Assembly: GCF_004134865.1 (NCBI RefSeq)
Contig: NZ_SDPO01000002.1
Span: forward strand, 124,001-188,000
DNA from: Agromyces fucosus
GTDB taxonomy: Bacteria; Actinomycetota; Actinomycetes; Actinomycetales; Microbacteriaceae
Length of the DNA stretch: 64,000 bases
Reading direction: 5' to 3'
Under the pieces are notes generated by a model. It worked only from the letters and a program-made list of their open reading frames with translations, did not search any database and was not told the DNA's origin. Position numbers and translations under genes: made by a program. Shown here piece after piece: positions 7,539 to 62,718 of this stretch (position 1 is the first letter of the stretch; each line of letters opens with the position of its first letter).

Positions 7539-8171
7539 CTACTCCCCCGCACCCGCCCATTCGAAGCCGTCGGGGTCGGTGAACGCACCGGCGTCCCCAT
7601 TGATGCGGATGCGGTGCGACCCCGAGCCCTCGGCGGCGACGCCGACGGTCTTGGCGAGGGCACGCCGCTTGTAGAGGCCGAGGCCGATCGGGCTGCCGGG
7701 GGCGGCGAAGTCGACGTAGCTGCCGAAGCTCTTCGCGACGGCGAGCCCGCGGTCGACGTAGAAGCGCTTGCTCGCGCCGACGTCTTCGGCGCCGATGAGC
7801 AGCACGAGGTTGTCGATCGTGCGGGTCGCAGGTCCCGTGTCCTTCTTCGACGAGGTCGCGACCTGCCAGATCGCGCCGTCGGGTGCCTGCACGACGCCGC
7901 CGAAGCCCCACAGGGACTTCTCGGCCGGCTTCAGCACGGAGGCGCCGGCGGCGACCGCGGAGTCGAACAGCGAGGTGACATCGGCCGGCTGCGACACGAT
8001 GACCGACATGGTGAATCCGCGGAACCCGCTCGACGGGGCATCCGCTGCCCGGAGGCGAACCTGCGGGCCGAGCCCGAAGGCGTCGGCGTAGAAGCGCGCG
8101 GCCGCGTCGGGGTCGGCCGCGTCGAGGGTGATCGAGTCGATGGTGGTGAGCTTGGTCGTTTCCGTGTTCAT
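7539..8171 (-). CDS. VOC/glyoxalase-like protein with two modules
   Basis: 210 aa from the ATG at 8171. A GTG 18 bases further upstream is possible, but the second start leaves the usual short leader. Two paired beta-alpha-beta-beta-beta modules are visible: the first begins TTIDSITLDAADPDAAARFYADAFG and the second TIDNLVLLIGAEDVGASKRFYVDRG; DPDG-like turns end both (APDGAIW and TDPDGFEW). That is the vicinal oxygen chelate architecture. The metal ligands are not obvious, so it may be a resistance- or lyase-like protein with an unknown substrate. Monocistronic by spacing. Confidence 0.85.
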   Translation of the reverse strand: MNTETTKLTTIDSITLDAADPDAAARFYADAFGLGPQVRLRAADAPSSGFRGFTMSVIVSQPADVTSLFDSAVAAGASVLKPAEKSLWGFGGVVQAPDGAIWQVATSSKKDTGPATRTIDNLVLLIGAEDVGASKRFYVDRGLAVAKSFGSYVDFAAPGSPIGLGLYKRRALAKTVGVAAEGSGSHRIRINGDAGAFTDPDGFEWAGAGE

Positions 8172-8228
8172 GTCTTCGACGATATTCACCGCTCGCAGCC
8201 CGTGCTTCTCCGATTCTGCTCGCTTCGC

Positions 8229-8260
8229 GGGGTCTCGATACGCCGCACTCCTCGACCGGC
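8229..8260 (+). repeat. REP-like dispersed palindromic repeat, copy 1
   Basis: The stretch beginning GGGGTCTCGATACG and ending CTCCTCGACCGGC recurs at 20763-20800 (reverse), 29114-29146 and, more decayed, 33443-33473 (reverse). All copies are intergenic. This copy lies just upstream of the VOC gene and after the stop of the serine hydrolase. It resembles the GGTCTCGATACG...CTCGACC intergenic palindromes common in related actinobacteria. Confidence 0.75.
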
Positions 8261-8267
8261 ACTGCGG

Positions 8268-9629
8268 TCAGCCGAGCGCCGCGATCGCGTCGGCGACGAG
8301 CTGCCGTTCCGACGGCTCGTCGTCGGCCGCCGGGGTGAAGCCCATGCGCACCACGACGAGCTCCTCCGAGGGCACCATGACGACCTTCTGCCCGTCGTGC
8401 CCGCTCATGTAGTAGGTGTCGTCGGGCAGCTCGGGCCAGCGCAGGCTGCCGTCGGGCAGCACGTTCGTGCGGAAGCCCATCGCGTAGCCGGGGTCGTCGG
8501 TCGCCTCGTGGTCGACGTTCGTGAGGGTGTCGTCCATCCACCCCTCGGGGAGCAGCTGCTCGCCGTTCCATTCGCCATCCTGCAGCGCGAACTGGCCGAG
8601 TGCAGCCCAGTCGCGGGGTGCCGCCCAGAGGTACGACGAGCACACGGGCGTGCCCGCGCCATCCGGTTCGAAGACGGCCGTCGACAGCCCGAGCGCGCCG
8701 AGGATGGTCTGGCGGGGCAGGTCGGCGCCGAGGCCCGTGCGCTCGGTCAGCACCGAGCAGAGCAGGGTCGTGCTGCCGCTCGAGTACTCCTGCACCGTGC
8801 CGGGCTCGTGCTCGAGGGGCAGGCTCGCGACGTAGCTGCCCATGTCGGGCTCGAGGTAGAGCATGCGGGTGATCGGCGTGCCGAGGTCGTAGGTCTCGTC
8901 CCACTCGAGGCCGCTCTGCATGCGCAGCAGGTCTTCGACGGTGATGTCGGCGCGCTCGTCGGTCCATTCGGGTCGCAGGTGGTCGTCGTCGAGCGAGACG
9001 ACACCCTGCTCGACCAGCATTCCGGTCATCAGTTCGGCGACGCTCTTCGACATCGACCAGCCGAGCTGCGGGGTCTCGGCGTCGAAGCCGTCGGCGTAGC
9101 GTTCGGCGACGAGCTCACCGTCCTTCACGACGACGACCGCGCGGGTGCCGAGCGCCTCCTGGTCGGATGCCGCGAGCTCGTCGCCGAACGCCCGGCCCAT
9201 CGCCTGCTCGAGCGCGGCGTCGGCCTCGGGGGTCGGGGCGGCTGGCGTTGCGGCGTCGGTGAACGGGTTGGCTCCGGCGTCGATCGCAGTGGCCTCGCCG
9301 AGCTCGGGCCGCTGGTCGGCGAGCGTGCAGCCGAAGCCGTCGGTGTACCAGGCCGTCTGGTGCGCGATCGCGCCGAGGATCGAGCCCGTGGTGCGGTCGG
9401 CGTCGACGTCGACGTCGACCTGCAGGTAGGGCACGAGCGGGTTCGGCGGCAGGTCGGTGGCCGGGTCGTCGCGACCGGCGACCTCGGTGACGGCGCACGC
9501 GTTGTGCGCGGCGTAGCCGGTGCCGGTCAGCAGGATCGGCTGCTGCCAGAGGTAGACCCCGGTGAACGCGGCGATGAGAACGAGGGCGGTGACGGCGACG
9601 ATGACGATCACCCGACGGAGGATGTGCAC
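8268..9629 (-). CDS. membrane-anchored serine hydrolase (class C beta-lactamase fold)
   Basis: 453 aa. An N-terminal helix (about 7-27) with no clear cleavage site suggests a membrane anchor with the domain outside. The catalytic motifs of the penicillin-binding/beta-lactamase class C-like family are present: SMSK at 192-195, YSS at about 282-284 in place of YSN, and HDG at about 411-413 in place of KTG. About 140 residues precede the catalytic domain, longer than usual, including two Cys (45 and 101) that could form a disulfide. It may be a D,D-peptidase-like or esterase enzyme rather than a true beta-lactamase. Three further members of the family lie near 52-58 kb. Confidence 0.85.
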   Translation of the reverse strand: MHILRRVIVIVAVTALVLIAAFTGVYLWQQPILLTGTGYAAHNACAVTEVAGRDDPATDLPPNPLVPYLQVDVDVDADRTTGSILGAIAHQTAWYTDGFGCTLADQRPELGEATAIDAGANPFTDAATPAAPTPEADAALEQAMGRAFGDELAASDQEALGTRAVVVVKDGELVAERYADGFDAETPQLGWSMSKSVAELMTGMLVEQGVVSLDDDHLRPEWTDERADITVEDLLRMQSGLEWDETYDLGTPITRMLYLEPDMGSYVASLPLEHEPGTVQEYSSGSTTLLCSVLTERTGLGADLPRQTILGALGLSTAVFEPDGAGTPVCSSYLWAAPRDWAALGQFALQDGEWNGEQLLPEGWMDDTLTNVDHEATDDPGYAMGFRTNVLPDGSLRWPELPDDTYYMSGHDGQKVVMVPSEELVVVRMGFTPAADDEPSERQLVADAIAALG

Positions 9630-49220: not shown

Positions 49221-50096
49221 TCACCGCACCAGGTTCGCCGCCTCATCGAGCCGCCCGAGCTTGTTCGGGTTCGCAATCGAGAAGATCCGCGTGATGCGGC
49301 CGCCCTCCACCTCGAAGCAGATCGCACCGGCGAGCTCGCCGTCGACCTCGCCGCGGATCGCGGGATGTCCGTTGACCCACGTCGGCACCGCTTCGAACGG
49401 CAGCCCGAGCTTCGCGAGACCGCCGAGCAGGTAGCGCGCGATCTTGTCGGCGCCGTGGATCGGCCGGAGCGCGGCACCCTTCACGAGTCCGCCGCCGTCG
49501 GCGACGGAGACGACGTCGGGTGCGAGCACGTCCATCAGGCCCTGCAGGTCGCCCGAGTTGACCGCCGTGAGGAACCTCGCGACGACCGCCTCCTGCTCGG
49601 CACGATCGACCGAAACACGGGGGCGCCGAGCGGCGACGTGTTCCTTCGCCCGATGGGCGATCTGCCGCACGGCCGCCGGCGTCTTGTCGACGGCCGCCGC
49701 GATCTCGTCGTACGGCACGTCGAACACCTCGCGCAGCACGAACACCGCGCGCTCGGTCGGGCCGAGCGTCTCGAGCACGGTCAGCATCGCGATCGACACG
49801 CTCTCGGCCAGCTCGACGTCGTCCGCGACATCCGGACTCGTGAGCAGCGGCTCGGGCAGCCACTCCCCCACGTACGACTCGCGCCGCCGCGACATCGTGC
49901 GCAGGTGATTGAGGGCCTGCCGGGTCACGATGCGCACGAGGTACGCGCGCTCATCGCGCACCTCGCTGCGGTCGACCTGGTCCCACCGGAGCCAGGACTC
50001 CTGCAGCACGTCCTCCGCGTCGGCGGCTGAGCCGAGCATCTCGTACGCGACCGTGAAGAGCAGGCCGCGGTGGGTGACGAACGGATCGTCGGTCAT
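49221..50096 (-). CDS. sigJ: ECF41-family RNA polymerase sigma factor SigJ
   Basis: 291 aa. Sigma2 at about 8-75 (LQESWLRW, RAYLVRIVTRQALNHLR) and sigma4 at about 105-155. The ECF41 fingerprints are all present: WLPEPL at 79-84, DVVSVADGGG at 194-203 and NPNKL at 280-284, in the fused SnoaL-like C-terminal domain that tunes activity. It overlaps the CMD gene by the ATGA sequence, so it is translated from the same mRNA. ECF41 factors drive their own operon; a matching promoter lies upstream of CMD. Confidence 0.95.
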   Translation of the reverse strand: MTDDPFVTHRGLLFTVAYEMLGSAADAEDVLQESWLRWDQVDRSEVRDERAYLVRIVTRQALNHLRTMSRRRESYVGEWLPEPLLTSPDVADDVELAESVSIAMLTVLETLGPTERAVFVLREVFDVPYDEIAAAVDKTPAAVRQIAHRAKEHVAARRPRVSVDRAEQEAVVARFLTAVNSGDLQGLMDVLAPDVVSVADGGGLVKGAALRPIHGADKIARYLLGGLAKLGLPFEAVPTWVNGHPAIRGEVDGELAGAICFEVEGGRITRIFSIANPNKLGRLDEAANLVR

Positions 50097-50701
50097 GCTT
50101 TCGAACCTACAACGGATGCCGCGACATCCGCCCGGGTGGCGAGCGGCGGCATCTCACAGGCATCCGCATAGCCCTCGGAGTGGATGCCGAGCGAGATGTT
50201 CAAGCGCGAGCTCATGTTCATGAACGCGACCTTGGCACTGAGCTCGATGAGCGCGGCTGGGCCGAGCGCGTCGAGCAGCGAGGCCGACAGCTCGTCGGTG
50301 ACGCTCGGCGGCGTCTGGCTCATCGCCTCCGCGTACTCCATGACCTGACGCTCGAGCGGCGTGAACACGGATGCCTCGCGCCAGACCGGCACCTGCCGCG
50401 CCTTCTCCTCGTCGAGGCCCTCGTTGTGCGTCTTGTAGTAGTTGAAGTCGAGGCACCAGCTGCAGCCGATGTAGGCCGCCGTCGCCATCACCGCGTAGCT
50501 CGCGAGGTTCTCGTCGAGCTCGTCGAGCGCCTCGATCTTGCGGCCGATGCCCATCGACGCCCGCATCAGAGCGGGGTGGTGCGCGAGCACGCCCATCGAG
50601 TCGGGCACCCGGCCGATCATGCGCTTGGCGGCGATCTTCACGACGGTGCCGAAGACGCCGGTCAGCTCGGTCGGCGGGATGCGGGTCTGGGTGGTGGTCA
50701 T
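50093..50701 (-). CDS. carboxymuconolactone decarboxylase-family protein, ECF41 partner
   Basis: 202 aa. The second of two ATGs at 50701 is best spaced from AGGAGG. AhpD-like fold: the redox CSWC pair sits near residues 85-88 in AAYIGCSWCLDF, followed by the conserved EKARQVPVWREASVFTPLERQVMEYAEAMS helices. CMD-type proteins are the best-known neighbours of ECF41 sigma factors (with oxidoreductases or epimerases). Substrate unknown; peroxide reduction or thiol-dependent chemistry is inference. Stop overlaps the sigJ start. Confidence 0.9.
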   Translation of the reverse strand: MTTTQTRIPPTELTGVFGTVVKIAAKRMIGRVPDSMGVLAHHPALMRASMGIGRKIEALDELDENLASYAVMATAAYIGCSWCLDFNYYKTHNEGLDEEKARQVPVWREASVFTPLERQVMEYAEAMSQTPPSVTDELSASLLDALGPAALIELSAKVAFMNMSSRLNISLGIHSEGYADACEMPPLATRADVAASVVGSKA

Positions 50702-50761
50702 CATGTCCTCCTGCGTGTCGACGGCCCGGGGTTCGGTTCCCGGATGATCCGTCGACATGAA

Positions 50762-50788
50762 GACACCGGATGTCGCGTGGTTGTGACA
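50762..50788 (-). promoter_or_regulatory. predicted ECF41 promoter of the CMD-sigJ operon
   Basis: Read leftward: TGTCACA (50788-50782), 16 bases, TGTC (50765-50762), against the ECF41 consensus TGTCACA-N16-CGTC. About 60 bases upstream of the CMD start. Supports autoregulation by SigJ. Confidence 0.75.
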
Positions 50789-55432: not shown

Positions 55433-56653
55433 ATGCGGAACTCCATGTGGGCGGTCGCCGCAGTCGCGGCCGTCACCGCCGTCACGTTGAGCGGATGCGT
55501 CGCCACGGCGTCGGATGCTGACGTCGCCGACACTCCACCAACGGCATCCACCCCGTCCCTCGACCCGGCGCTGCGCGAGCAGCTCGAGACGGCGCTCGAC
55601 GAGGGCTTCGAGGCATCCGGAATGCCCGGGGTGATCGTCGGGGTGTGGATTCCCGGCGAGGCCGAATGGGTGTCGGCGCGGGGCGTGGCCGATGTCGCGA
55701 CCGACGAACCGATGGATCGCGGCAACCAGCAGAAGATCGGCAGCATCACCAAGACGATCGTCAGCACGGTCATGCTGCAGGTGATCGGCGAGGCCGAGTT
55801 CGACGTCAGCCTCGACGACACCCTCGACCGGTGGTATCCCGAGTTCCCCGAGGCATCCGATATCACGGTGCGGATGCTGCTGAACCACTCGAGCGGCACC
55901 GGCGAGGCCGGACGGGCGCAGGTCGACCGCATCTGCAGCGCGCCCTACGCCGTGCCGACGCCCGACGAACTCATCGCGGTCGGTGCGGCGACGCCCCGAG
56001 CCGACTTCGCTCCGGGCGCGGGCTTCGAGTACGCCAACACGAACTACTTCCTGCTCGGCGGCATCCTCGAGCAGGTCACCGGCGAGGAGCTCGCGAGCCT
56101 CATCCACGACCGCATCACCGAGCCGTTCGGCATGGACCGCAGCCGGTTCGCGCCCGACGGAGAAGTCACCGCCCCATTGACCCACGGCTACTCCGACTTC
56201 TGCCCCGAGCTCGGGCAGCCGGCCGACACCGTCGGCTGGTCGAACGGCGAGAGCTGGGCGGGCGGCGGCATGGTGTCGACCCTCGACGATCTCCACGCCT
56301 GGGGTGAGGCGCTCGGCGAGGGCGCAGGCGTCACCCCCGAACTGCAGGTCGCGCGGTACACGGATGTCGCGCCGATCCCCGGGCAGGCCGGAGCCGCGTA
56401 CGGCCTCGGCACGGGTCTCGTCAGCGACGTCGAGACCGGGTGCGTGCTCAGCGTCTCCCACGCCGGAGCCGAGCCCGGGTACGGCTCGAATCTCGCGTAC
56501 TACCCGGCGACCGGGGCGGTCTTCGCGATCCTCGGCAACGGCGACGGCGGCACCGGCGACGCGACGGCGGAGGTGCTGAACGCGCTGGCGCCGGTGCTGC
56601 GCTCGGCGTTCCTCGGGTCGTCGACCGAGCCGTGCGCGGCACCATGGGGATGA
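55433..56653 (+). CDS. serine hydrolase lipoprotein, tandem copy A
   Basis: 406 aa. ATG at 55433 after a GGGGG stretch; a long frame to 54290 upstream is antisense to LysR and non-coding. Lipobox ending GC at residue 22. Motifs: SITK at 104-107, YAN at 200-202, HAG at about 343-345. The class C beta-lactamase fold is clear. It is about 70% similar in pattern to the next gene, whose start is 12 bases after its stop: a tandem duplication. D,D-peptidase or esterase role is inference. Confidence 0.87.
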   Translation: MRNSMWAVAAVAAVTAVTLSGCVATASDADVADTPPTASTPSLDPALREQLETALDEGFEASGMPGVIVGVWIPGEAEWVSARGVADVATDEPMDRGNQQKIGSITKTIVSTVMLQVIGEAEFDVSLDDTLDRWYPEFPEASDITVRMLLNHSSGTGEAGRAQVDRICSAPYAVPTPDELIAVGAATPRADFAPGAGFEYANTNYFLLGGILEQVTGEELASLIHDRITEPFGMDRSRFAPDGEVTAPLTHGYSDFCPELGQPADTVGWSNGESWAGGGMVSTLDDLHAWGEALGEGAGVTPELQVARYTDVAPIPGQAGAAYGLGTGLVSDVETGCVLSVSHAGAEPGYGSNLAYYPATGAVFAILGNGDGGTGDATAEVLNALAPVLRSAFLGSSTEPCAAPWG

Positions 56654-56664
56654 CAGGGGTCGAG

Positions 56665-57873
56665 ATGCGGAATTCGAGGAAATGGGTGGTCGCCGCGGTC
56701 GCGGCAGCCACGGTCGCCATGCTGAGCGGATGCCTCGGCGCGACGGCGGACGACGCCTCGGTACCGCCGACCGCGGCCGCCCCGCCCCTCGACCCTGAGC
56801 TGCGGGAGCAACTCGAGGCGGCCCTCGACGAGGGCTTCGAGGCATCCGGAATGCCCGGCGTGGTCGTCGGGCTCTGGGTTCCCGGCCAGGAGGAGTGGGT
56901 CGCCACCCGCGGGGTCTCGGATCTCGACGGGGACGTGCCGATGGACCGCGCGAACCAGTCGAAGATCGGGAGCATCACGAAGACCGTCGTCGGCACGGTT
57001 GCGCTGCAGGTCATCGGCGACGGCGAGGCCGGGCTCACCCTCGACGACACGATCGACGAGTGGTACCCCGACTTCCCGCTCGCGAACGAGATCACCGTGC
57101 GCATGCTCATGAACATGTCGAGCGGCATCGGCCCACCCGGCGAGGCCCAGATGGACCGGATCTGCGCCGACCCGCACTCGCCGATCACGCCCGACGAGGT
57201 GATCGCGATCGGCGCAGCGACCCCGCGCGAGGCCTATGCGCCCGGCGAGGGCTTCACCTACTCGGGGTACAACACCTTCCTGCTCGGGCGCATCCTCGAG
57301 CACACGACCGGCACCGACCTCGGCACGCTGATCGACGAGCGTCTGATGGTGCCACTCGAGATGACGCGCAGCCGCTTCGCTCCCGATGCCGTGCTGGCCG
57401 ATCCGTTCAACCGCGGCTACTCGGAGTTCTGCCCGCTGCTGCCCCAGCCCACCGACACCACCGATTGGACCAACCACGAGGGTTGGGCGGCCGGCGCCAT
57501 GCTCTCGACGATCGACGACCTCCACACGTGGGGGCTCGCCCTCGGCGAGGGATTCGGGCTCACCCCCGAGATGCTGGCCGCGCGCATCGACGATCGCGCC
57601 CCGGGCACGAGCGACGCGGGATACGGCTACGGGCTCGGCGTGAGCGTGCACGTCGACCCGGCGACCGGATGCCTCCTCGATCTCAACCACAGCGGCGCCG
57701 AGCCGGGCTACGGTGCGCACGTGCAGTACTTCGAGGGCTCCGGCGCCGTGTTCGCCCTCATCGGCAACGGCGACGGCGGCACCGGCGTGGAGTTCTTCAA
57801 GGTCGTCAAGGCGCTGCTCACCGTGCTGCCGCCGTCGGTGGCCGCGACGTCGAGCGAGGCCTGCGACTCGTAG
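56665..57873 (+). CDS. serine hydrolase lipoprotein, tandem copy B
   Basis: 402 aa. ATG at 56665 with AGGGG upstream; an ATG 15 bases earlier overlaps the previous stop. Lipobox Cys23. SITK at 103-106, HSG late, but the second motif is YSGYN, not YAN or YSN, so the Asn is displaced or lost; the paralogue just upstream keeps YAN. That may change activity. The stop codon lies inside the first unit of a 15-bp tandem repeat. Confidence 0.87.
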   Translation: MRNSRKWVVAAVAAATVAMLSGCLGATADDASVPPTAAAPPLDPELREQLEAALDEGFEASGMPGVVVGLWVPGQEEWVATRGVSDLDGDVPMDRANQSKIGSITKTVVGTVALQVIGDGEAGLTLDDTIDEWYPDFPLANEITVRMLMNMSSGIGPPGEAQMDRICADPHSPITPDEVIAIGAATPREAYAPGEGFTYSGYNTFLLGRILEHTTGTDLGTLIDERLMVPLEMTRSRFAPDAVLADPFNRGYSEFCPLLPQPTDTTDWTNHEGWAAGAMLSTIDDLHTWGLALGEGFGLTPEMLAARIDDRAPGTSDAGYGYGLGVSVHVDPATGCLLDLNHSGAEPGYGAHVQYFEGSGAVFALIGNGDGGTGVEFFKVVKALLTVLPPSVAATSSEACDS

Positions 57874-59132: not shown

Positions 59133-59591
59133 TCACCCTCGCCGCGGCGTCAACCGGATCACCGGGATCTCCCGGTCGGTGATGCGCTCGTACCGTGCGA
59201 ACCCGGGCGCCTGGGCCGTGATCTTCTGCCAGGCCGCCTCGCGATCGGCGCCGTGCAACTGCACGGCCGTGACCTCGATGCGCTGGCCGGCGTACTCGAT
59301 GCGAACCCGGTCGGGGTGGGCCGCGACGTTGTAGTACCAGGCAGGGTTCCGAGGCGCGCCGCTCGCCGACGCCACGATGAGTCGGGTCCCGCCGTCGCCG
59401 GAGAACCAGCGCACCGGAGTCATCCGCTCTTCGCCGGTCTTCTTGCCCACCGTCACGAGCACCAGCTTGTTGCCGCTCCGGTCGCCCTTCCGACGCAATC
59501 GCTGGGCCATTCGCAGGTTCGCCCACCGCTCGAAACGATTGCGTCCCGGCTGGCGGGCTCCACGGGTACCGTTCGTCGTGTCGAATGCCAT
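59133..59591 (-). CDS. nitroreductase/F420H2-dependent (Ddn-type) oxidoreductase
   Basis: 152 aa. ATG at 59591 with GGGAGG upstream. The flavin/deazaflavin-dependent split-barrel family: GNKLVLVTVGKKTGEERMTPVRWFSGDGGTRLIVASASGAPRNPAWYYNVAAHPDRVRIEYAGQ is the F420-binding core. Length and pattern match the short Ddn/PNPOx-like class found in mycobacteria and other actinobacteria. Probably reduces quinones or xenobiotics. Convergent with the HAD gene, 36 bases between stops. Confidence 0.87.
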   Translation of the reverse strand: MAFDTTNGTRGARQPGRNRFERWANLRMAQRLRRKGDRSGNKLVLVTVGKKTGEERMTPVRWFSGDGGTRLIVASASGAPRNPAWYYNVAAHPDRVRIEYAGQRIEVTAVQLHGADREAAWQKITAQAPGFARYERITDREIPVIRLTPRRG

Positions 59592-59769
59592 GACGTTCGC
59601 CTCCCTGAGGTGCGATGCGTACATCAATCATCCCGCGAACACACTCCCGCGTCCCCGAATTCAGACGGAACGGAGAGGGTCGCGCTCATGCGGATACTCG
59701 GTGCCCGGCATCGTTGACGCGCCGCGAGCGCGGGCGTAGACCTGAGGCATCCGACAAGGAGGTGCCGAC

Positions 59770-61094: not shown

Positions 61095-62558
61095 TCACCC
61101 CGACGAACGCGACCCGGTCTCGAGCAGGCGCCACCGCTCGTACCGGTCGACCGGCTCGTGCACCTCGATGTACTCGCCCCCCGGCAGGCGCACGATGCGC
61201 CCGGTCTCGAACCCGTGGAGCACGACGTCGCGGTCCTTGCGCTGCAGGCCGAGGCACACCCGCCGTGTGATGGTGAAGCCGATGGCGGGCCCGACGACCA
61301 GCACGACCTGCAGGGTGAGCACGACACCCTCGATCGTGAGGCTGAAGGCGTCGGCGATGAGATCGGCACTGCCCGCGGCCCAGAGCGTGGCGTAGAACAC
61401 GACGCCCGCGACACCGATGCCGGTTCTCGTCGGCATGTTCCTCGGGCGGTCGAGCAGGTGGTGCTCGCCCCGGTCGCCCGTGATCCGCTCCTCGAGGAAC
61501 GGGTACACGGCCACGACGAGGAGGAAGGCCCCGATCACCGCGAGCGGCACGAGCACGGCGAGGGTCCAGGTGCGATCGAGCGCGACGAACTCCCAGCCCG
61601 GGGGCACGAGCCGCAGCGCGCCGTCGAGGAAGCCCGTGTACCAGTCGGGCTGGCTGCCGGCGCCGGCATCGCCGGGCGAGGCCGGCCCGTACAGCCAGAT
61701 CGGGTTGATCGTGACGGTCGCCGCGATCAGCATCAGCATGCCCGAGACGATCAGGAAGAGCCCGCCCGCGCGGGCCGCGGCATTGGGGAACAGCGGCACG
61801 CCGACGACGTTGGCCTCCGTTCGCCCGGGGCCGGCGAACTGCGGCGGCCGGTGCCGGGCCAGCAGCGCGACGCGCACCACGAGGAGCGCGATCATCGCCG
61901 GCACGACCACGAGGTGCAGCGGGTACAGGCGCTCGATGATCTCGCCAGGGAACGCGCCGCCGAACAGCAGGTCCTTCAGCCAGGTGCCGACCACGGGGAT
62001 GCCGAGCGTGATGCCCTCGACGATGCGCAGCCCGGTGCCCGAGAGCATGTCGTCGGGCAGCGCGTAGCCGCTCCATCCGCCCGCGAGCGCTGCGATGAGC
62101 AGGAGGAACAGCAGCACCCAGCCCGCACGTCGTGGCCGGCGGAACGCCCCCGTGAAGAAGGTCACCAGGAGCTGCGCGAGCAGGGCCGCCGGCAACAGGA
62201 GCGCGGCCCAGTGATGCGCCTGCCGGAGGGCGAGCCCGCCGGGCACCTCGAACGAGACGTGCATGGTCGACGCGAACGCCTCGGAGACCTGTGCGCCGTG
62301 CAACGTCGGATACGCCCCGTCGTAGGCGACGGTCGCACTCGACGGCGTGTAGTGGAACATGAGCACCACGCCCGTCACGGTGACGACCGCGAGGCAGGCC
62401 AGCGCGACGACTCCGAACAGGTTCGACCAGTGCAGCGGCACGACGCGGTGACGGAGCTCCTGCATCGCGGCGCCCCCGCGCCTGCCGATCCGCGTCTTCG
62501 ACATGCTCTCGGCCAGCCGTCCCGTGACGTCCGTGCGCGTTCCCGATGCTCCCGACAC
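61095..62558 (-). CDS. stand-alone cytochrome b (QcrB-like), heme bH ligands replaced
   Basis: 487 aa, GTG with GAGGAG upstream. Eight or nine helices. N-terminal cytochrome b domain: HHW at 115-117 with heme ligand His115, FFTGAF, and RLYPLH with His216; the QcrB-like PDWY quinol-site signature follows. In canonical QcrB each heme has two His: first-site His115/His216 are present (heme bL), but the partners are Gln129 (in LAQLL) and Arg230, so heme bH should be missing. No qcrA, qcrC or ctaE genes are nearby. The C-terminal ~110 residues are helical plus a polar tail. A novel electron-transfer or quinone-binding role is inference. Confidence 0.85.
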   Translation of the reverse strand: MSGASGTRTDVTGRLAESMSKTRIGRRGGAAMQELRHRVVPLHWSNLFGVVALACLAVVTVTGVVLMFHYTPSSATVAYDGAYPTLHGAQVSEAFASTMHVSFEVPGGLALRQAHHWAALLLPAALLAQLLVTFFTGAFRRPRRAGWVLLFLLLIAALAGGWSGYALPDDMLSGTGLRIVEGITLGIPVVGTWLKDLLFGGAFPGEIIERLYPLHLVVVPAMIALLVVRVALLARHRPPQFAGPGRTEANVVGVPLFPNAAARAGGLFLIVSGMLMLIAATVTINPIWLYGPASPGDAGAGSQPDWYTGFLDGALRLVPPGWEFVALDRTWTLAVLVPLAVIGAFLLVVAVYPFLEERITGDRGEHHLLDRPRNMPTRTGIGVAGVVFYATLWAAGSADLIADAFSLTIEGVVLTLQVVLVVGPAIGFTITRRVCLGLQRKDRDVVLHGFETGRIVRLPGGEYIEVHEPVDRYERWRLLETGSRSSG

Positions 62559-62718
62559 GTTGGTCTCCTCTCAGGCCCTTCACCACATACGACACGGGCC
62601 GACCCCGATTTGTGACAGGTCGAGAAACTTCTGCCGGAGGTGTCCGATCGGGGCCACGCTGTTCGTAGCAAGGGTGAGAGGTCGCCGATCGGAGGCGGCC
62701 CGTGAAGGGACCAGGATC
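62559..62718. promoter_or_regulatory. divergent promoter region of cytochrome b and RibD-like genes
   Basis: 160 bases between starts. Holds GGAGG-type leader of the cytochrome b gene on the minus strand and an AGGAT before the rightward ATG. A TGTCCGA at 62641 may be a sigma-type -35 for the ECF operon, but the -10 is unclear. Confidence 0.35.

Follow-up and report, generated by a model that had tools for sequence, protein, structure and literature searches.

A conserved QcrB paralog predicted to lack heme bH, with an ECF41-type promoter, as a possible alternative cytochrome b of complex III in Agromyces fucosus

Results

A second QcrB gene in the host genome

We analyzed a stretch of 64,000 nucleotides of the Agromyces fucosus genome (contig NZ_SDPO01000002.1, positions 124,001 to 188,000; hereafter, the window), to which all coordinates without a contig or locus prefix refer. 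The gene under study is the following.

61095..62558, minus strand: gene of a QcrB paralog that has lost the heme bH ligands; starts with GTG and encodes 487 aa

The encoded protein scores 572.5 bits against the NCBIfam model bc1_QcrB_actin (NF050120), compared to a cut-off of 500; membership in the ExtP, cytochrome b6 or SoxC families was rejected, with scores far below the respective cut-offs. The predicted structure (pLDDT 83.6, pTM 0.84), when compared with solved structures, has the fold of actinobacterial QcrB: the best nine Foldseek matches are all QcrB chains from supercomplexes of Mycobacterium and Corynebacterium (TMq 0.82-0.87, with 0.87 to 6hwh), and VIA-align gives a Z of 41.8 to 7q21_B over 463 residues. 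The identification as QcrB in a first-pass annotation, made from the nucleotide sequence and its open reading frames, is thus confirmed by the family score, by the PDWY motif and by the structural comparison that the annotation had proposed.

There are two QcrB genes in the host genome. The normal gene, at C1:284656-286014, encodes all four His ligands and adjoins qcrA and qcrC on a contig other than that of the window. Near the window gene no qcrA or qcrC was found, as the annotation had noted, so this gene does not belong to a qcrCAB operon. The two QcrB proteins of the host share 56% identity across residues 31-481. The nearest relative of the paralog among the matches listed comes from Agromyces sp. 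Root81 (85%). A C-terminal tail is kept in 13 of 15 relatives, and the window protein is without it.

Loss of the heme bH site

Six positions of the gene bear on its cofactors and its quinone-oxidizing (Qp) site.

62214..62216, minus strand: His115 codon, helix-B heme bL ligand, kept (pocket survey)
62172..62174, minus strand: Gln129 codon (CAG), helix-B bH ligand position (alignment)
62109..62111, minus strand: Leu150 codon, replacing the helix-C Gly (Leu in 52 of 52 Gln-class sequences, Gly in 51 of 51 all-His sequences)
61914..61916, minus strand: His215 codon, helix-D heme bL ligand, kept (pocket survey)
61872..61874, minus strand: Arg229 codon (CGC), helix-D bH ligand position (alignment)
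61638..61649, minus strand: PDWY motif of the Qp site, P304-Y307 (sequence)

The His ligands of diheme cytochromes b follow a 14/15 spacing. We placed the bH ligands and the helix-C Gly by alignment, and we take the Gly to pack near bH. Other residue roles in the mycobacterial complex follow the accessible text of PMC11189923 and PMC8616580; the former gives His109 and His211 as the heme bL ligands of M. smegmatis. Reading the window protein back yields H115, H116, Q129, H215 and R229, with Leu at 216 and Val at 230. The residue numbers of the first-pass annotation therefore hold for 115 and 129, whereas those of helix D (216 and 230) were one too high. Its rule that each bH ligand lies 14 residues after a bL ligand likewise holds for helix B only: the helix-D spacing is 15 in normal actinobacterial QcrB, and the window protein has a one-residue deletion in this helix, despite which Arg229 still aligns with the bH His. 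The main claim of the annotation, that both bH ligands are absent and the bL pair is kept, stands in the alignment (Gln129/Arg229 versus H115/H215). Of the hallmarks of a diheme cytochrome b, the bL His pair and PDWY are present in the window protein and the bH His pair is missing. Two other histidines were considered as replacement bH ligands and rejected: His100, which the annotation had named as a possible occupant of the bH pocket, aligns with an Asp of normal QcrB and varies within the subfamily, and for a His near 236 the rejection follows from visual inspection of that alignment.

In the pocket survey, 52 Gln-class sequences were compared to 51 all-His sequences, in which the ligand columns are His by definition and the other columns are not. 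Every Gln-class sequence that covers the respective positions keeps the bL ligands, Arg106, His110, Tyr159, Asp302, Tyr304 and Asp309. The Qp site is not simply unchanged, since Phe156 is replaced by Trp in 51 of 52 Gln-class sequences and the constraint on Asn282 is relaxed (Ser in 21, Asn in 18, Ala in 7, Gly in 3 and Asp in 3 of 52). At the Qn site, Glu44 (M. smegmatis numbering) has become Val, Ala or Ile in 51/51 Gln-class sequences, the aromatic residues 48 and 257 have become Ala in 49/51 and 43/52, respectively, and Lys260 is Arg in 52/52. The window protein departs from the normal site at all four positions (Val50, Ala54, Ala260 and Arg263). A survey by region, based on columns conserved in 80 all-His sequences and scored in 54 Gln-class sequences, with helix borders set by us, found 56 of 69 such columns kept in the p-side loops and the p halves of helices B-D, and 16 of 52 kept in the n halves of helices A-E and the bc and de loops. 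The remaining columns kept number 2/6 in the p half of helix A, 0/4 in that of helix E, 4/9 in the n-side fg loop, 4/5 in helix F, 7/8 in the C-terminal domain and 6/8 in the rest of the core.

Taken at the level of sequence, these comparisons strongly support loss of the bH site in the window paralog, and they suggest that, broadly, the quinol-oxidation half has been retained and the quinone-reduction half rebuilt in the Gln class. With the bL pair kept and the bH pair lost, a single protomer should not run a Q cycle by itself. Across the subfamily, the Gln and the Arg hardly vary and hence are probably functional, and they might hold a different redox cofactor or ligand at the bH position; we see only a slim chance of this, given that the change of the helix-C Gly to Leu fills the pocket rather than opening it.

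A patchy clade under constraint

The survey for the Gln/Arg pair that the first-pass annotation had suggested recovered this pair in other genomes. Among 111 combined sequences, the ligand patterns were His-Gln-His-Arg (54), all-His (51), His-His-His-Tyr (3), His-His-His-Asn (1) and His-Gln-His-Trp (1); the remaining sequence, L088, has Gln/Arg and is missing its N-terminal part because of an in-frame stop. Four of the 54 His-Gln-His-Arg sequences are from genomes seen twice (L063, L066, L070 and L077) and were dropped from later counts, leaving 50. Two more Gln/Arg sequences are L150 (family code f46) and L179 (Nocardioides). In total, there are 54 distinct Gln-class sequences, the window included, of which 53 are Gln/Arg and one is Gln/Trp; their hosts are Microbacteriaceae, Promicromonosporaceae, Nocardioides and Microlunatus.

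The scan of named genomes gave at least 80 loci. At least 16 of 299 Microbacteriaceae genomes, the host included, carry the Gln/Arg paralog; these carriers are the window genome, 14 of the 15 loci L005-L019 (all but L018) and Humibacter albus (L093). In a class-wide sample, Gln/Arg forms were found in 5 of 394 genomes (matches at E <= 1e-190). The trait is patchy within the genus of the host as well, where 4 of 7 genomes carry the paralog.

In a tree of 136 sequences, a branch with SH-aLRT 100 sets the 54 Gln-class rows apart from all others, and three Tyr forms and an Asn form branch between these and the 78 all-His rows; the tree comes from a quick search and includes eight long-branch rows, one flagged long-branch join and seven rows with odd composition. 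The Tyr forms (L018, L073 and L074) keep the helix-B His, with Tyr at the helix-D bH position and Ala or Val for the helix-C Gly. Having lost one ligand and this Gly and kept Glu44 and Tyr48, they look, by sequence, like an intermediate stage. The Asn form, L021 (G029), is another QcrB paralog; Asn occupies its helix-D bH position, and ALWY stands in place of PDWY, so that its Qp motif is altered as well.

The NG86 dN/dS values are 0.12-0.27 for 12 pairs of Agromyces paralog copies and 0.06-0.15 for 10 pairs of normal qcrB genes of the genus. The paralog is under constraint but a looser one, with a dN/dS about twice that of normal qcrB. This difference, together with an interrupted or cut frame in 2 of 56 copies (L088 and L119), is what a decaying duplicate might show, and the annotation had raised a sequencing error at both codons. 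However, the same residues recur in 50 distinct complete or near-complete copies, which excludes such an error, and these copies form one clade; moreover, the measured dN/dS is well below 1 and the promoter is conserved. Chance, sequencing error and a pseudogene are ruled out by the copy count, the clade and the dN/dS, and we give decay or error practically no weight.

An ECF41-type promoter upstream of the paralog

The features below concern the regulation of the gene.

62588..62617, minus strand: ECF41-type promoter, TGTCACA-N16-TGTC with GTA next to it on the 3' side; begins 59 nt upstream of the GTG (motif scan)
50762..50788, minus strand: second ECF41-type promoter in the window, before the genes of a carboxymuconolactone decarboxylase (CMD) and an ECF41-like sigma factor
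50093..50758, minus strand: CMD-domain protein, 221 aa (PF02627)
49221..50096, minus strand: SigJ/ECF41-like sigma factor with a SnoaL_2 domain, one of three such host genes; candidate

The published ECF41 consensus promoter is TGTCACA-n16-CGTC, according to the accessible text of PMC3426412, and the region upstream of the window gene matches the pattern TGTCACA-n16-[C/T]GTC of an ECF41 regulon. This exact motif, with either C or T allowed in the -10 element, has three sites in the 4.0-Mb host genome, compared to 0 for the reversed pattern. They lie upstream of the window gene, before the CMD and ECF41-like sigma genes of the window, and divergent from another such sigma gene. By our estimate, one to two exact sites are expected in this genome from base composition, so the locations of the sites weigh more than their number.

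A first scan found the exact motif upstream of 18 of 60 non-normal loci versus 1 of 50 all-His loci. When the region before the lead gene was considered, the exact motif occurred in 21 of 56 distinct loci, the reversed motif in 0/56 and the exact motif in 0/82 all-His loci. A wider motif, [TC]GTCAC[AG]-n16-nGTC, which was chosen after inspecting the other upstream regions, is found in 48 of 56 loci, plus 3 loose matches, compared to 0/56 for the reversed motif, a mean of 0.06 loci for single-base shuffles and 3/82 for all-His genes. It should be noted that the corresponding Fisher p of 6e-25 ignores relatedness and the post hoc widening, and that most of the all-His control regions fall inside the qcr operon and thus are not true promoter controls. 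The 8 of 56 loci without a strict match to the wider motif comprise the loose matches (L013, L080 and L119), L014, in which the site lies before the preceding gene, L019, in which the site overlaps the aligned start, and L021, L088 and L096, in which no upstream site for the wider motif was found.

The three all-His qcrB genes with the wider motif are L130, L180 and L186. Two Promicromonospora genomes each carry a tandem pair, of which L180 and L186 represent the same member, and L130 is an orphan near SigJ-like genes. The tandem pairs (L180/L185 and L181/L186) each place two four-His qcrB genes within about 3 kb, which makes three QcrB copies per host. The L130 region (8103-9596 and flanks) combines the orphan four-His QcrB gene and its ECF41-type promoter with two sigma genes of the SigJ-like kind, a weaker relative, a CMD protein, NmrA-like SDRs, an SdhA-like flavoprotein and a flavohemoglobin-like protein. 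Since L130 has an ECF41-type promoter yet stands apart from the Gln clade, these sequences suggest that ECF41 control of a second QcrB arose more than once.

A form of the motif with TA after the -10 element also has three sites in the host genome and 0 in the reversed orientation: one before the window gene, one at C3:135137 before a hydrolase gene, and one antisense inside a long ORF, the last of which is probably due to chance. The row that starts at the second site (C3:135137-142925, L217) encodes a hydrolase, a DHA2-type efflux pump, another hydrolase, a SigJ/ECF41-like sigma factor, a 121-aa protein and NmrA-like SDRs. The small, stand-alone 121-aa protein (L217:9108-9470) is encoded after the sigma gene and matches no Pfam family; L036:10972-11343 encodes a small stand-alone protein resembling the C-terminal domain of SigJ-type sigma factors. 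The C3 sigma factor is 71-89% identical to those encoded near the paralog in L009, L013, L054, L056 and L075, and, as judged from this similarity, it ranks first among the candidates for the cognate factor of the paralog. This SigJ type, found near several paralog copies, is absent in 5 of 16 carriers at E <= 1e-60. At an identity of at least 55%, it is found in 11 of 16 carriers versus 4 of 20 genomes without a known paralog; the 20 include G023, whose second QcrB copy may be of either class, and the Fisher p of 0.006 ignores relatedness.

Gene neighbors and partner subunits

An NDH-2 gene lies directly upstream of the paralog, in the same orientation, in 22 of 56 loci, and adjoins 0 of 82 all-His qcrB genes, many of which have only 1.5 kb of flank. 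Identified by sequence, the upstream NDH-2 is similar to solved NDH-2 structures (9mqy, 6.4e-32; 5na1, 6.8e-31). In 7 of 16 carriers, this NDH-2 subtype occurs beside a housekeeping-like NDH-2, and in G288 it is unlinked to the paralog. In the window, no NDH-2 was found beside the gene; the single NDH-2 homolog of the host is housekeeping-like and is without an exact ECF41 site. A co-oriented SdhA-like flavoprotein gene lies nearby in L010, L084 and L087. NDH-2, SigJ, NmrA-like SDR and hydrolase genes recur in part of the loci, and a fixed neighborhood common to all loci was rejected.

Other genes of the window include an F420H2-dependent quinone reductase family protein (59133-59624, minus strand; PF04075), about 1.5 kb from the cytochrome b gene, and a tandem pair of beta-lactamase-family (PF00144) proteins (55433-57873, plus strand). 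On the other side of the gene lies a divergent unit (62719-64942, plus strand; its last gene runs past the window) with a RibD_C protein, a YCII-domain protein and a large ECF sigma factor with DUF6596, which we take to resemble ECF42 units.

All 16 carriers, one of them a Tyr form, have one full-length QcrA copy and one QcrC copy. A dedicated second QcrA or QcrC was sought and not found in 16/16; the extra QcrA hits are short Rieske-domain stretches.

The position of the gene apart from qcrA and qcrC in the window genome and the NDH-2 pairing noted above would also suit a single-heme cytochrome b or quinone sensor that stands alone outside complex III, perhaps working with the NDH-2 of its operon. 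We consider this quite unlikely, because a sensor without a Rieske partner has no obvious need for the cd and ef loops and most Qp residues, which are conserved. The first-pass annotation had proposed such a quinone sensor or one-electron carrier along with the absence of a Q cycle. The latter proposal is supported by the loss of the bH and Qn sites, whereas the former has become the less supported one. An alternative complex III subunit fits better because of the conserved Qp site and cd/ef loops, the linkage to NDH-2 or SdhA-like genes at some of the loci, the ECF41-type promoter and the single-copy QcrA and QcrC.

Discussion

The reading that we favor, with a probability of roughly 0.45, is that the paralog is an ECF41-induced alternative QcrB that uses the resident QcrA and QcrC and oxidizes menaquinol without a Q cycle of its own. 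An ECF41 sigma factor would induce the paralog, which would then replace normal QcrB alongside the resident single-copy QcrA and QcrC. Menaquinol would be oxidized at Qp, with one electron passing to the Rieske protein and the second reaching bL, from which no bH or Qn would be available in the same protomer. Two exits for this electron can be envisaged. It could join the high-potential branch after a short circuit, or it could cross the dimer through bL-bL transfer to a normal QcrB partner. The first exit would amount to a complex III without a Q cycle and, with NDH-2, to a respiratory branch conserving less energy, which could keep running in the face of a high proton motive force or when the Qn site is impaired.

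These two sub-models, a low-coupling complex or a mixed dimer, reflect what the accessible text of PMC4330944 describes for Rhodobacter. There, the bH knockout lacks the antimycin-sensitive phase of cytochrome c reduction, and a symmetric bH-knockout fusion was not obtained, which speaks against an efficient homodimer of the paralog; conversely, the bH-less half of a mixed dimer works through bL-bL transfer. Hence, the paralog may instead pair with normal QcrB in one complex III dimer, in which its bL would pass electrons to the bL, bH and Qn of the normal half and so complete a Q cycle with two Qp sites and one Qn site. The engineered heterodimers, the single-copy QcrA and QcrC, and a normal four-His QcrB in 11 of 11 carriers for which we read the second copy (a Tyr form among them) are all consistent with such pairing, but separate promoters give no guarantee of joint expression, and we think it unlikely. 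The failure of normal turnover in the Rhodobacter knockout (PMC4330944) also fits a dominant-negative brake, which would enter complex III under stress and halt electron flow and proton pumping. The stress-type promoter would suit such a brake; however, the kept Qp residues and the pairing with NDH-2 suggest flow rather than a stop, making a brake very unlikely.

An alternative QcrB working with resident partners could, in some Actinomycetota, be part of a switchable complex III. Under ECF41 control, QcrB would be exchanged for a naturally bH-less version, accompanied in certain species by NDH-2 or an SdhA-like flavoprotein, and the resulting respiratory branch would free menaquinol oxidation at Qp from the Q cycle. 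In this full form the proposal is tentative and rather doubtful. To our knowledge, a low-coupling mode of complex III has so far been observed only in laboratory mutants or under inhibition. The layout of cytochrome b with two hemes and two quinone sites is treated as fixed in complex III, and some soil bacteria might, under stress, swap in a version that works differently. A natural, conserved cytochrome b devoid of both bH and Qn would offer a ready test of the purpose of the Q cycle, and the paralog would also test bL-bL electron crossing in a living cell and bifurcation at Qp without an exit. If our favored reading is true, ECF41 sigma factors, whose known targets are few, would gain a respiratory target. 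Moreover, automated annotation gives the name "cytochrome bc1 complex cytochrome b subunit" also to proteins that should not run a Q cycle alone. In the literature reached (most subscription journals lay outside its scope), we found no description of a natural bH-less cytochrome b.

Comparison with known systems

The promoter is shared with the ECF41 regulons of PMC3426412, and the host also has a typical pair of CMD and ECF41-like sigma genes. According to the accessible text of that paper, the COE genes (carboxymuconolactone decarboxylase, oxidoreductase, epimerase) are the only known, detectable ECF41 targets; its main text contains no word starting with cytochrome or NADH. In Streptomyces coelicolor, QcrB2 and the orphan QcrB3 (SCO7236) are, like the paralog, second QcrB proteins encoded outside the qcr-cta locus (PMC7931247). 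QcrB3, a precedent for an alternative QcrB that works with resident partners, co-purifies with parts of the bcc-aa3 supercomplex, and the authors, in the accessible text, propose that it may replace QcrB in spores, which by their account is not unequivocally shown. The orphan QcrB of Streptomyces sp. NRRL WC-3626 (L130) has all four His, unlike the window paralog. The engineered bH-knockout cytochrome b of Rhodobacter (H212N) likewise has bL and Qo present and bH removed at one ligand, as the accessible parts of PMC4330944 and PMC4807273 describe; it is one laboratory change, whereas in the paralog both ligands and the pocket have changed in nature, and stably. With the QcrB of the actinobacterial bcc-aa3 (CIII2CIV2) supercomplex, the paralog shares the fold, the bL ligands, PDWY and most Qp residues; it differs in the missing bH ligands, the rebuilt Qn site, the separate gene, the ECF41-type promoter and, in 22/56 loci, the NDH-2 neighbor.
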